Assembly (NCBI GenBank): GCA_947589465.1
Contig: CANQAE010000015.1
Span: forward strand, 1 to 33,308
Direction of reading: 5' to 3'
Origin: an uncultured Clostridia bacterium
GTDB taxonomy: Bacteria > Bacillota > Clostridia > Christensenellales > Pumilibacteraceae
DNA length: 33,308 bases
Positions 26,482 to 31,828 of this stretch are shown one piece after another. The position numbers and the translations under genes were made by a program. A model generated the notes under the pieces. That model saw only the letters and a list, made by a program, of their open reading frames with translations, had not been told where the DNA came from and made no database searches. Position 1 is the stretch's first letter. Every line of letters starts with the position of its first letter.

Positions 26482-26514
26482 ATAAAAAAATACAGCCGTA
26501 TTTTCGATACGACT
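26482..26514 (-). terminator. terminator of the metallophosphoesterase gene
   Basis: Stem of 8 bp with one G-U pair, minus strand AGTCGTAT (26514-26507) with ATACGGCT (26501-26494), then GTATTTTTTTATTT. The stem overlaps the last base pairs of the stop codon. Confidence 0.83.
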
Positions 26515-27211
26515 ATATTTTGATAGGTATGGGTTTGTTGTGAACAAGATCGCACGACGTCAAATAGTAAGTGATATTGTCTATCGTGACGACTTTGCAA
26601 TATTTGACGTTTGCGCCGTGCAGATGCCCGTAAACGACGGCAGTAACGTCATATTCGCCGAATAGATCGGTAAATTTCGTTTTCGAGAAAGTGCTGTTGA
26701 ATGGCGGATAATGACAAAGAACTATTGTTTTGTCCCCTTTTTCCTTGATTTTTTTTGCCGATTCTAACCCAAGTTTGAACCTTTGCAATTCGCGTTCGTA
26801 AATTTTCTGCTCGTCGGGCGGCAAGCAATCGTTCGGTTCGGGCGTGGTCCAACCTCGACTGCCGGTAAAGATAATGTTATCGAATTTGATGCAATCGTTT
26901 TGTAAAGCGTAAACATTATTCGGCAAAATATTTCGTACCGCCGATATTGACTTCCACCAATAGTCGTGATTGCCGCGAATGAGTATCTTTCTGCCTTTCA
27001 GCGAGCCTATAAAATCAAGGTCGGGTTTTGCTTCTTCGAGCGTCATAGCCCAACTTATGTCGCCTGCTATAAGCAAAATATCGTCGTCTGCAAGTTTTTC
27101 GCACTCCGATTTGATTTGATCGAGGTAATTATCCCAAACTTTGCCGAAAATGTTCATCGGTTTGGGCGAACTTATCGAGAGATGAAAATCGCTTAAAGAA
27201 AAGATATTCAT
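26513..27211 (-). CDS. calcineurin-like metallophosphoesterase
   Basis: 232 residues, cytoplasmic. The metal-binding motifs of the family occur in order: SDFH (D8, H10), GDISW (D51), GNHDYWW (N81, H82), CHYPP and YGHLHG. The substrate is unknown; relatives of this size are annotated only as phosphohydrolases. D8 lies so close to the N-terminus that ATG 27211 must be the start. Yet it has no ribosome binding site and lies only 6 nt after a TATAAT box, so the mRNA should be leaderless. It is a single-gene unit with its own terminator. Confidence 0.92.
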   Translation of the reverse strand: MNIFSLSDFHLSISSPKPMNIFGKVWDNYLDQIKSECEKLADDDILLIAGDISWAMTLEEAKPDLDFIGSLKGRKILIRGNHDYWWKSISAVRNILPNNVYALQNDCIKFDNIIFTGSRGWTTPEPNDCLPPDEQKIYERELQRFKLGLESAKKIKEKGDKTIVLCHYPPFNSTFSKTKFTDLFGEYDVTAVVYGHLHGANVKYCKVVTIDNITYYLTSCDLVHNKPIPIKI

Positions 27212-27972: not shown

Positions 27973-28554
27973 TTAAATTTGCATTATTTCTTCGAGTCTA
28001 AGCATAATTTTATCGATTCCGAGTTTGGATACCGACGAATAAGCGATCAGATTATCTCTGCCAAGTCCCAAAAAAGCGGCAGTGGCTGTTATTTCGCTAA
28101 TTAACGCCGACTTCTTGATTTTGTCGCATTTTGTGGCGATCACCGTAAAAGGTATACGATAATAGTACAGATATTCGAGCATTTGCTTATCCTTTTCCGA
28201 TCTGTTGCGTATATCAACGAGTACAAAAACTTGCTTTATCGCATCGGAATGTTCGAAGTAATGCCCCATCAATTCGTCCCAAGTATCTTTGTCCGTTTTG
28301 CTTGCTTTCGCGAAGCCGTAACCGGGAAGATCGACCAAATTGAATTGCCCGTCGTTTATTGAAAAAATATTGATAAGTCTTGTTCTGCCGGGGGTCGAAG
28401 AAGTCTTTGCTAATTTTCCGTTATTGCAAATAGTATTTATGAACGTGGATTTTCCGACGTTGGAACGACCGACTACGCAAATTTCGGGCGCGCTGCCTCC
28501 TTCGTAACCGAAGGCAAAACTTTTTAGAAATTCGGCTTTTTTTATTTGCATCAT
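27973..28554 (-). CDS. engB: ribosome biogenesis GTP-binding protein YsxC/EngB
   Basis: 193 residues. It is an essential small GTPase for 50S assembly. G1 is GRSNVGKST, G3 DLPGYGFAK, and G4 TKCDK; the N-terminal KKAEFLKSFAF is typical. Start ATG 28554 overlaps the lon stop by 4 nt (ATGA). lon-engB is the usual Firmicutes order. The stop codon lies in a perfect 14-bp palindrome, ATTTAACGTTAAAT (27965-27978). Confidence 0.97.
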   Translation of the reverse strand: MMQIKKAEFLKSFAFGYEGGSAPEICVVGRSNVGKSTFINTICNNGKLAKTSSTPGRTRLINIFSINDGQFNLVDLPGYGFAKASKTDKDTWDELMGHYFEHSDAIKQVFVLVDIRNRSEKDKQMLEYLYYYRIPFTVIATKCDKIKKSALISEITATAAFLGLGRDNLIAYSSVSKLGIDKIMLRLEEIMQI

Positions 28555-30890
28555 TTTTCCAAAGCCAGATCGAGCACTTCGTCTATGTCCGAAACCGTGA
28601 TTATTTTTACCGAATCTTTGACTTCGGGCGGTATTTCTTCTATATCGGTAGTATTTTCTTTCGGGATCAAGAGCGTCTTAACGCCGAAGCGCAGAGCCGC
28701 GAGAGATTTTTCTTTCAAGCCGCCTATCGCAAGTACTTTTCCGCGCAAAGTGACTTCGCCCGTCATGGCTATGTCCCCGCGGACTTTTCGGTCTGTCAAC
28801 GCCGATACGAGAGCGGTGGTGATGGTGATGCCTGCGCTCGGACCGTCCTTGGGCGTCGCTCCTTCGGGGAAATGGATATGAAAATCGTTTTTAGTGAGTT
28901 TGTCGCTGTCAATGCCGTATTTTGCCGCGCGACTTTTTATGAGCGACAATGCGGCAATGCACGACTCCTTCATGACGTCGCCCAAACTGCCCGTAAGTGT
29001 CAATTCGCCTTTACCGTTAGGAATGAGCGCAACTTCGATAGACAAAGTAGTCCCGCCGACACTTGTCCAAGCAAGACCCGTCGCATGACCGACTTCGCCG
29101 CCATTTGACTTAAAGTCGTCCTTGAACTTAATGGGACCGAGATAAGATTCTATATCCCCTTCGTCGATCGTGATTTCGGCGGAAGTTTGACCCGCTTCTA
29201 CCGTTTTGACCGCCAATTTGCGCACGATCGAGCCTATTTCGCGTTCGAGAGAGCGCACGCCGCTTTCGCGAGTATAAGCCGTAATGATTTTCAAGATCGC
29301 ATTGTCCGTGAATTGTATGTTGGAATCTGCGAGTCCGCAAGCAAGCAATTGCTTTTTGACAAGGTATTTCTTCGCTATCTGCAACTTTTCGGCATACGAA
29401 TAGCCGGAAAGTTCGATTATTTCCATTCTGTCGAGCAGCGGCGGCGGGATCGTTTCGACCGTATTTGCCGTCATCACGAACATAACTTTGCTGAGGTCGT
29501 AAGGAATTTCGAGATAATGGTCGGTGAACTTATTGTTTTGATTAGGATCGAGGACTTCGAGCATGGCGCTTGCGGGATCGCCGCGAAAATCGCTCGACAT
29601 TTTGTCTACTTCATCGAACAAGAACACGGGATTGATCACTTCGGCGTTCTTCATGGACGAAATGACTCTACCCGGAAGTGCGCCTATATAAGTTCGTCTA
29701 TGCCCGCGAATTTCGGCTTCGTCTTTCACGCCGCCGAGCGAAACCGAAACCAATTTCTTCCCCGCGGCACGGGCTATCGAAGCGACTATCGAAGTTTTGC
29801 CTACGCCCGGAGGTCCGACGAAACACAAGATGGGTCCTTTGAGATTGTTTGTGAGTTTGTGGACAGCCAAAAATTCGATTATTCTGTCCTTAACCTTTTT
29901 AAGTCCGTAATGGTCCTCGTCAAGAATCTCTCTTGCGCGTTTGAGGTCTACGTTGTCGTCCGTTTGCGCCGTCCAGGGAACGTCGAGAAGCCATTCGATA
30001 TAAGTGCGAATAACAGCCGCATCGGGCGACGTCGCTGACATTTTTTCAAGTCTGGACGCTTCTTTTTTTATGCGTTCGACAACATAAGGCGGAAGATTTT
30101 TTTCCTTTGCAAGTTGTAAATATGTTTCTTCGTCCTCGTCGCCGAGTTCTTTTTTTATTGCTTTGATCTGTTCGCGCAAATAAAATTCGCGTTGTCCCTT
30201 TGAAATACTATCTCGTACATCGGCGGCTATCTTCTTTTCGACGAGCATTATCTCCGTTTCTTTCTTGAAAAATTTGGATATGTTTATAAGTTGATCGGTA
30301 ACCGTCTTTTCCTGCAAGAGTTCCTGTTTGAGCGTATCGGTATTGTAGACGAACGTCGCAATTGCGCCTATGAATTTTTCGCTGTCGTCTACCGTAAGCG
30401 TTGCGGCGACCTCGGCTGGAATTTTGCTGTCCAACTTTTTATACAGTTCGAAATTTTCGCTGACGTTGCGTTTTGCGGCTTCGTAAAGCAGCGGATCTTC
30501 GGCAGATTCGCCGTACGAAATGAGTTGCACCTCGAAAAATGGTGCGATCTGCACATAATTTTCGATTTGCATTCTCGATAGTCCCGTCGCGAGTATGCGT
30601 ACTCTGTCGTTAGGCAATTTGAGCATCTGTTTGATCTTGCATATCGTCCCGACCCTATAAATATCTTTCGGGGCGGGATTGGCAATGCTTGCCCTTTTCT
30701 GAGCGACTATGAAGATATCTTCGTTGTCTTCGGCGGCGCGTTGTAAAGCCGACAAAGACTTGTCGCGGGCAACGTCGAAATTGACCGTTTGACCCGGAAA
30801 AATTACAACTCCGCGAGTCGCGATCATCTTGTATATTTTGGGTTCCGTAAAGTTGAAATCCATTTTGTTGGGATACAATGATTCTTGCAT
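28551..30890 (-). CDS. lon: ATP-dependent protease Lon
   Basis: 779 residues, full length. It degrades misfolded and regulatory proteins in the cytoplasm. Domains: N-terminal LON substrate domain (about 15-210), AAA+ module with GPPGVGKTS and VFLFDEVDKM, and a C-terminal Ser-Lys protease domain. The catalytic serine is in PKDGPSAGIT and the lysine in LRGKVLAIGGLKEKSLAA. Start ATG 30890 has AAGGA upstream. It has its own promoter (30955-30983); no CIRCE or CtsR-type operator is recognisable. The leader carries a GTATTAA / TTAATAC hairpin (30916-30933). Confidence 0.98.
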   Translation of the reverse strand: MQESLYPNKMDFNFTEPKIYKMIATRGVVIFPGQTVNFDVARDKSLSALQRAAEDNEDIFIVAQKRASIANPAPKDIYRVGTICKIKQMLKLPNDRVRILATGLSRMQIENYVQIAPFFEVQLISYGESAEDPLLYEAAKRNVSENFELYKKLDSKIPAEVAATLTVDDSEKFIGAIATFVYNTDTLKQELLQEKTVTDQLINISKFFKKETEIMLVEKKIAADVRDSISKGQREFYLREQIKAIKKELGDEDEETYLQLAKEKNLPPYVVERIKKEASRLEKMSATSPDAAVIRTYIEWLLDVPWTAQTDDNVDLKRAREILDEDHYGLKKVKDRIIEFLAVHKLTNNLKGPILCFVGPPGVGKTSIVASIARAAGKKLVSVSLGGVKDEAEIRGHRRTYIGALPGRVISSMKNAEVINPVFLFDEVDKMSSDFRGDPASAMLEVLDPNQNNKFTDHYLEIPYDLSKVMFVMTANTVETIPPPLLDRMEIIELSGYSYAEKLQIAKKYLVKKQLLACGLADSNIQFTDNAILKIITAYTRESGVRSLEREIGSIVRKLAVKTVEAGQTSAEITIDEGDIESYLGPIKFKDDFKSNGGEVGHATGLAWTSVGGTTLSIEVALIPNGKGELTLTGSLGDVMKESCIAALSLIKSRAAKYGIDSDKLTKNDFHIHFPEGATPKDGPSAGITITTALVSALTDRKVRGDIAMTGEVTLRGKVLAIGGLKEKSLAALRFGVKTLLIPKENTTDIEEIPPEVKDSVKIITVSDIDEVLDLALEK

Positions 30891-31013: not shown

Positions 31014-31042
31014 CTAAAAACCGCCCGAAATATTTCGGGCGG
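31014..31042 (-). terminator. strong terminator upstream of lon
   Basis: A perfect 22-bp palindrome at 31021-31042, arms CCGCCCGAAAT and ATTTCGGGCGG, followed on the minus strand by TTTTTAG. It closes the transcript that runs through the structured non-coding stretch. Confidence 0.92.
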
Positions 31043-31328
31043 CGGAATTGCTTATTTATATGCTTCAACGAAGGCAACCTACGAACAAGTTCTCATCATT
31101 ACTCGCGACAGATCTCATCATTACCCGTCGCCGCCAAAACCTTCGCGTTTGAAACGATCTCATATTTCCCTATATCTTTTTTGGCTGCCCGTCTTTCCCC
31201 AAAAACGTGTGAGCCCGATTAATCATTTTCGTTAGGCGATAACTCGCCTACTCATCATTTTATTCATAAACGAAACTTTCCCAAGACGTTTCACACTTAA
31301 ACGTCAAAGCCCATAAATGAATAAAAAC
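31043..31328 (-). ncRNA. candidate structured non-coding RNA or long structured 3' UTR, family unknown
   Basis: About 290 nt with no reading frame, between a membrane-protein stop (31329) and a strong terminator. On the minus strand it holds several perfect or near-perfect hairpins: TTTTATTCAT / ATGAATAAAA (outer, 31326-31259 region) around GACGTTT / AAACGTC; TAGGCGA / TCGCCTA (31250-31233); CGTTTTT / AAAGACG (31206-31189); CGAC / GTCG (31130-31106 region). The string AATGATGAG occurs three times (31259-31251, 31122-31114, 31100-31092), twice as the 12-mer GTAATGATGAGA. I found no clear internal promoter; it may be processed from the upstream mRNA. It does not show hallmark motifs of SRP RNA, tmRNA or RNase P RNA. 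Confidence 0.5.
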
Positions 31329-31790
31329 TCAATTTAAAAGTTTGTTGAACATCAAAAACAGATTTTTTTTCGCAAAAAAACTGCTCTTGTTTTCGCAATC
31401 TCTTTCGTCTTCGGGCTTAATGCTCTTAGAAAAGATCTTGCTCGCCTTTTTCGAAATTATATATACCGCCGCTTTGGTAGCCAAAACAACGAATATAATC
31501 AAACTTATCAGTTCGGTCAAAAGTTGTATGCCGACCGTAATCGAAGTGCCGAAGAAGAAAATCGTAGTCAGCACGTCTTTCAACATGGCGAACGCGTCTT
31601 TGCCAAGCAAACCGAAGATGGCGTTTCTTATTTCAATATATTCGACCTGAATAATTTCAGCCATTACAAACAATGACAATACGCATATATTCAAAATCAT
31701 TGCCTTAGTCTGTTTTTTGAGGCAATTGTAAATCATAAGACCCACAAGGGCAAAGAAATTGATAATTAAAATTATATCGTATACTGTCAT
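31329..31790 (-). CDS. small integral membrane protein, unknown function
   Basis: 153 residues. It has four predicted hydrophobic segments at about 4-22, 29-48, 68-92 and 95-120, then a charged cytoplasmic-looking tail (KKASKIFSKSIKPEDERDCENKSS). No family recognised. The start is ATG 31790: an in-frame TTG at 31832 lies upstream of the promoter's -10, so it cannot be on the main transcript. The ATG is only 9 nt beyond TATACT and has no ribosome binding site, so the mRNA is nearly leaderless. The structured non-coding stretch follows directly on the same strand. Confidence 0.7.
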   Translation of the reverse strand: MTVYDIILIINFFALVGLMIYNCLKKQTKAMILNICVLSLFVMAEIIQVEYIEIRNAIFGLLGKDAFAMLKDVLTTIFFFGTSITVGIQLLTELISLIIFVVLATKAAVYIISKKASKIFSKSIKPEDERDCENKSSFFAKKNLFLMFNKLLN

Positions 31791-31799
31791 TACGAAAAC

Positions 31800-31828
31800 A
31801 GTATAACCTTTAATACCGTATATGTCAA
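31800..31828 (-). promoter_or_regulatory. promoter of the small membrane protein gene
   Basis: Minus strand: TTGACA (31828-31823), 17 nt, TATACT (31805-31800), then GTTTTCGTA and the ATG. Expected 5' UTR is 0-3 nt. Confidence 0.87.

Follow-up and report, generated by a model that had tools for sequence, protein, structure and literature searches.

A conserved RNA with a predicted fold directly after an orphan, predicted membrane-protein gene in uncultured gut Clostridia: a candidate membrane RNA-protein pair

In an uncultured Clostridia bacterium, the DNA that follows the stop codon of an orphan, predicted membrane-protein gene encodes what is almost certainly a real conserved RNA element, with the same anatomy in every genome of the genus found to carry the gene. 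The window, by which we mean the whole 33,308-nucleotide stretch of DNA that was analyzed, is one contig of a 1.3-Mb genome assembled in 56 contigs, and the relatives that have the membrane gene are MAGs of uncultured gut Clostridia. The RNA, the membrane gene, and a gene that we take to be lon-like (28551-30890) all lie on the minus strand, with the RNA between the two genes. We favor, with a probability of roughly 0.4, a reading in which the RNA would be bound by the membrane protein, giving a small membrane-anchored RNA-protein pair that resembles OLE RNA and OapA and is unrelated to them in sequence.

The RNA begins directly after the stop codon of the membrane gene (Table 1). As a preliminary description of the region had it, the stretch at 31014-31328 is without a reading frame (no ORF of at least 40 aa, the longest closed ORF on the RNA strand having 32 aa) and rich in hairpins; the stems are present, and the folding energy lies 3.75 standard deviations below that of shuffled sequences, with 0 of 100 shuffles as low. 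The 12-mer reported there, GTAATGATGAGA, occurs in exactly two copies, at 31113-31124 and 31091-31102, 22 nt apart, and its core AATGATGAG in a third, with TGATGAG at 31251-31257. These three are the only TGATGAG on the minus strand of the 33-kb window, while the plus strand has one, and any 9-mer was seen three times in 17 of 2,000 dinucleotide shuffles. The palindromic terminator is also there, perfect and followed by a T run, but it measures 22 nt with 11-nt arms rather than the 22 bp first given; the scan assigns it a 10-pair stem and a 4-nt loop.

Table 1. Features of the membrane gene and the RNA, in positions of the window
Feature	Position	Strand	Remarks
Promoter-like site TTGACA-17-TATACT	31800..31828	-	11 of 12 consensus bases; ends 9 nt before the membrane-gene ATG
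Orphan membrane-protein gene	31329-31790	-	153 aa, about four hydrophobic segments (hydropathy), coding pattern
P1 outer helix	31258..31326	-	Arms 31317-31326 and 31258-31267; inner part P1b
P2 inner hairpin	31285..31305	-	7 bp, loop AAGUGUG; all 7 pairs standard in each of the six carriers
UUUCGUUUAUGA in P1 3' strand	31264-31275	-	GUUUAUGA in 6 of 6 carriers, UUUCGUUUAUGA in 5 of 6
Single-stranded UGAUGAG	31251..31257	-	UGAUGA conserved in 6 of 6 carriers
Hairpin in the stretch of most variable length among relatives	31233..31250	-	Outside the consensus
P3 hairpin, loop GGGG within UUGGGGAA	31190..31207	-	UUGGGGAA in 6 of 6 carriers
Small hairpin around AGGGAA	31162..31175	-	Second GGGAA 3' of P3 in 4 of 6 carriers
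Two extra GUAAUGAUGAGA copies	31091..31124	-	Absent as a conserved element from relatives
Intrinsic terminator	31016..31043	-	22-nt palindrome 31021-31042, then T run

A nucleotide search with the region in 101 genomes found no relatives of the RNA; only the terminator palindrome was matched, in one other genome (G073). Conservation was therefore sought by synteny. The genus is represented by eight genomes (the window's own and seven others), only three of which are at least 90% complete. All six carriers of the membrane gene have the same elements directly 3' of its stop codon: helices P1 and P2, a single-stranded UGAUGA, and a hairpin with a GGGG loop. Measured from the first nucleotide of the stop codon, the start of GUUUAUGA lies at 58-67, that of the first UGAUGA at 72-85, and that of UUGGGGAA at 111-130 in all six. 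Each relative's RNA yields the same helices when folded alone, and the RNA cores fold 2.9 to 6.2 standard deviations below dinucleotide shuffles.

In a hand alignment of the six sequences P2 shows compensatory changes, with one pair seen as AU, GC, UA, and CG. A second alignment, A7, holds five sequences; 91.9% of its cells are standard, and 10 of its 27 pairs are altered on both sides, compared with a shuffled mean of 4.5 and with none of 500 shuffles reaching 10, while sliding the partners brought the count to 1-3 pairs. A7 too was aligned by hand, which favors structure. Conservation and covariation in related genomes had been set out beforehand as a check on the existence of an RNA gene, and the six carriers and the 10 altered pairs bear it out. 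P1b pairs in only 3-5 of the six, yet its 3' strand is conserved and may therefore serve a second purpose; in P3, the outer pairs form in 4-5 of six. An RNA model built from all six carriers (R1) recovers its source sequences at E 5.7e-12 or better, as expected of its own input. A second model (R2), built from the trimmed alignment A7 with the G003 sequence left out, scored that held-out sequence at 17.7 bits (E 0.11), and the R2 family search did not report it, so the searches give no independent proof of the RNA. UGAUGA occurs in 3, 1, 2, 2, 1, and 1 copies in the carriers. The triple AUGAUGAG, which the preliminary description had treated as a key element, is peculiar to the window genome, with its first copy alone conserved; conservation lies in P1, P2, and the hairpin with the GGGG loop rather than in the repeated 12-mer.

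By its pattern of substitutions, the 153-aa ORF before the RNA is a protein-coding gene: differences among orthologues at the three codon positions are 0.435, 0.305, and 0.630, and 486 of 918 same-residue codon pairs differ synonymously. The last two of the roughly four hydrophobic segments suggested by hydropathy adjoin, so three are possible. A lysine, K29, is invariant in a basic stretch after the first segment, and the C-terminal tail has a net charge of +1 to +7 in five carriers and 0 in one (G006). The predicted fold is poor (mean pLDDT 51), too weak to judge a binding surface or to search with. Homologues with 34-42% identity were found in 5 of 60 relatives, all five among the other seven genus members. 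A profile of the six proteins found no further members in 74 family genomes and, against 5.8 billion proteins, seven clusters, some of them these same proteins, which makes the protein, in our view, a rare orphan. Matches in Pfam, NCBIfam, PHROGs, and PADLOC were weak or absent.

Membrane gene and RNA are both present in six of the eight genus genomes and both absent from two (G002 and G005, each 75% complete), in keeping with the membrane protein/RNA pairing that the preliminary description had raised. Those two retain the other membrane gene, which in carriers lies upstream of the unit, and the next ORF, presumably XTP/dITP-diphosphatase-like, comes 101 or 113 nt after it. By eye, the gap after the upstream gene (L048 in G005, L049 in G002) contains a TTGACATATA... 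promoter-like stretch and then an ORF with an AGGAG site. On the other side of the RNA the genes differ, and we conclude that the RNA goes with the membrane gene that precedes it. The window has lon there; G003 and G004 have a pilin-like gene and then lon; G006 has a convergent ORF; and G001 and G007 have other ORFs, which we take to be recombinase-like and malic-enzyme-like, respectively. The early suggestion of a link to lon was lost with these differences, and a separate promoter-like site precedes lon in the window (30983-30955). The pilin-like gene lies between RNA and lon in G003 and G004 only (2475-2972 of L011 and a like ORF in L014); the G004 ORF has an N_methyl match, and its G003 counterpart is similar in appearance. 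In four of the six carriers the RNA is followed by a terminator: the scan located it in the window and G001, and folding did so in G006 and G007, for which the pattern scans do not list it. Between the RNA and the pilin-like gene of G003 and G004 no clear terminator was seen, and there the RNA could also lead into that gene.

Outside the genus we found no convincing copy of the protein (74 family genomes, 5.8 billion proteins) or of the RNA (396 sampled genomes of the order). With a cutoff of E 1, R1 matched 12 of the 74 family genomes: six are the carriers, where each match follows the membrane gene, and the other matches, at E 0.036 to 0.96, look like chance; the 396 order genomes, which include four of the six carriers, gave two more matches (E 0.021 and 0.036), also unconvincing. 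The weak R1 matches in G047 (0.036), G349 (0.021), G111 (0.117), G015, G023, G031, and G046 were taken as chance, as were those of R2 in G032, G040, and, at another place, G111; the loci inspected were L027-L032 and L034, all outside the R2 set L040-L042. A second R1 match in G006 (E 0.7) and one at 334-401 of the window (E 0.0075 in a small search) were likewise put down to chance. In G111, which belongs to another genus of the family, the minus strand of L028 at 1460-1600 has AAUGAUGAG, hairpins, and then UUGGGGAA, in the right order after a gene for a small basic protein; with weak scores of only 24.2 and 17.2 bits, this element is possibly a distant relative. Of 398 phylum genomes, two contained a pattern of the three motifs: that of the window and G782, where R1 scored 9.5 bits, the level of noise. 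The pattern also occurred on four viral contigs, which were set aside: R1 gave 19.4 bits on one, inside a phage coding sequence, and no match at E up to 5 on the other three.

The strong promoter noted early on before the membrane gene is one of a set of promoter-like sites, present in all six carriers, that match the consensus at 10 to 12 of 12 bases. The distance from the end of the site to the ATG is 9 nt in the window, 8 in G004 and G001, and 6 in G006, G003, and G007. Transcription starting at the usual distance from such a promoter would leave 0-3 nt before the ATG, and the mRNA is therefore predicted to be leaderless in all six. Of 24 gene starts in the window taken as a control, 2, that of the membrane gene included, reach 10 of 12 bases at this geometry, the starts being taken from a mechanical ORF list in which some may be wrong. 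The second such start belongs to a presumably phosphoesterase-like ORF at 26513-27211 on the minus strand, likewise predicted to be leaderless, whose TTGATT-17-TATAAT site stops 6 nt short of the ATG. That the mRNA start folds back onto the RNA was considered and rejected, since no conserved pairing was found between the two and 30 to 150 of 200 shuffles had a duplex energy as good.

Searches among known RNAs agree with the initial impression that no described family fits. No Rfam family reached its gathering score in the whole window or in five related loci. At E up to 10 the region has 15 weak matches, the best being sR44, a C/D snoRNA, at E 0.061 on the AUGAUGA copies. A C box, RUGAUGA, pairs with a D box, CUGA, and a D-box CTGA is found in one of the six RNAs; the L7Ae family (PF01248) was detected in none of the eight genus genomes, three of which are at least 90% complete, while the control found it in 7 of 14 named genomes. 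We accordingly rejected a box C/D RNA and, as a form of the kink-turn-like element first suggested, a kink-turn read by L7Ae/YbxF. CsrA (PF02599) was also undetected in the eight genomes, with a control match in 3 of 14, and a CsrA sponge of the CsrB/RsmZ type was rejected on that account; the two null results weigh against two readings of the GGGGAA and UGAUGA motifs. A hammerhead core is CUGAUGA, and in the six RNAs the base before UGAUGA is A, U, or G, never C; as Rfam gave no hammerhead match either, this ribozyme was rejected. OLE RNA (RF01071) matched none of the eight genus genomes, nor the region at E up to 10, and hhalign of the membrane protein with two proteins beside OLE that we took as OapA gave a probability of 0.2 over 14 columns. 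Membership in the OLE/OapA system by sequence was thus rejected, both the RF01071 match and the profile similarity to OapA being absent, while the arrangement typical of that system, an RNA gene adjoining a small membrane-protein gene, is found in all six carriers. PADLOC had no match, and in the open literature library that was searched there was no report of AUGAUGAG as a bacterial RNA motif and, among the matches listed, no such RNA-protein pair. Taken as a whole, the preliminary interpretation is partly supported.

In the reading that we prefer, the RNA is likely the 3' end of the membrane gene's own transcript. A single transcript would run from the promoter at the ATG to the terminator, its membrane protein would be translated leaderless, and the RNA might be processed near the stop codon. 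The protein would bind the RNA and hold it at the membrane, with the invariant GUUUAUGA, UGAUGA, and UUGGGGAA as proposed contact sites in the RNA and the basic stretch around K29 and the C-terminal tail as proposed binding surfaces in the protein. This reading draws on the identical anatomy after the stop codon in six of six carriers, on covariation in 10 of 27 pairs that no shuffle of 500 equaled, on joint presence (6) and joint absence (2), and on the way the RNA accompanies the protein gene while downstream genes differ. The roughly four hydrophobic segments, the invariant K29, the mostly basic tail, and the precedent of OapA point in the same direction. Against it we count the lack of sequence relation to OLE or the two OapA-like proteins, the tail of G006, which is not basic, the protein model with its mean pLDDT of 51, P1b with its pairing in only 3-5 of six, and the weak performance of R2 on G003. 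A position in the 3' UTR also fits a cis-acting element or an sRNA equally well.

The first of these, a serious rival though somewhat less probable than the pair, is that the RNA remains attached to the mRNA, predicted to be leaderless, and governs how stable that mRNA is, how it is translated, or how it is delivered to the membrane, the conserved motifs being read by a nuclease, the ribosome, or another factor. It would account for an RNA that starts at the stop codon with no separate conserved promoter seen and for the conserved geometry of the mRNA promoter, and the P1/P2 fold persists when the whole predicted transcript is folded. The mRNA start and the RNA are, however, without conserved pairing, and the unpaired motifs appear to be conserved beyond what a stability hairpin would need. 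Also a serious rival, though less probable still, is a trans-acting sRNA cut from the mRNA, with UGAUGA or the GGGG loop pairing with target mRNAs. The invariant unpaired stretches do resemble seeds, but neither G-rich loops nor a link to a single orphan membrane gene is typical of sRNAs. Derivation of sRNAs from 3' UTRs is known, and in Gram-positives they are made by RNase III or RNase J (PMC9438474).

Other explanations are far harder to sustain. That the RNA restrains a harmful membrane protein, in the manner of a toxin-antitoxin unit, is very improbable: a small membrane protein and an RNA gained or lost together would suit it, but type I toxins are shorter than this 153-aa protein, the RNA follows the gene and is neither antisense nor an upstream repeat array, PADLOC has no match, and the unit occupies the same genomic place in all carriers whose contig includes the upstream gene. 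We hold it equally improbable that the RNA is a riboswitch-like leader for the next gene, be it lon or the pilin-like gene; the arrangement in G003 and G004, with that gene next and no clear terminator between, would allow it, but the other four carriers differ in the downstream gene and have terminators after the RNA, and the window's lon is preceded by a promoter-like site of its own. A plain 3' UTR without conservation, its repeats due to chance, would explain why the nucleotide search found nothing past the terminator palindrome, but is scarcely credible given the six-way conservation of fold and motifs and the compensatory changes.

Whatever the reading, these data describe a conserved RNA family new to Rfam; its motifs are invariant, and the leaderless start predicted for the mRNA is conserved as well. 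More tentatively, and doubtful as yet, the unit may be a second membrane RNA-protein device that evolved independently, in which a leaderless mRNA encodes a four-helix protein and its own tail serves as the RNA partner. If the pair is real, membrane RNA-protein pairs would have arisen more than once, and a smaller system would be at hand for study.

Among known RNAs, the raiA motif RNA and ModT are alike in being structured noncoding RNAs of Bacillota outside the classic riboswitches; raiA, however, occurs in over 2,500 species according to the excerpt of its source, whereas the RNA described here is without an Rfam match. sRNAs derived from 3' UTRs, such as RsaC and RsaG, form the last part of a protein-coding transcript and end in a terminator, a place that the RNA here would share if it is cotranscribed with the membrane gene; they differ from it in that here a conserved multi-helix core, invariant loops, and a fixed tie to one orphan gene are found. 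OLE RNA is the precedent known to us in which a structured RNA of bacteria goes with a small membrane protein dedicated to it. Its occurrence in the family is patchy, present in 4 of 74 genomes from three genera (L073-L076). The excerpts of two papers describe OapA as encoded by a gene that adjoins ole, with four predicted helices, and as binding the RNA and bringing it to the membrane, and they regard the biochemical role of OLE RNA as still open (PMC11332333, PMC12265935). OLE is about 600 nt long, whereas the core here is about 130 nt, with 225-315 nt to the terminator, and the RNA follows its protein gene, whereas oapA, in those excerpts, usually lies downstream of ole. What the two have in common is a structured RNA whose neighboring gene encodes a small membrane protein of about four helices, in Bacillota-type anaerobes and, for OLE, in other genera of this same family.
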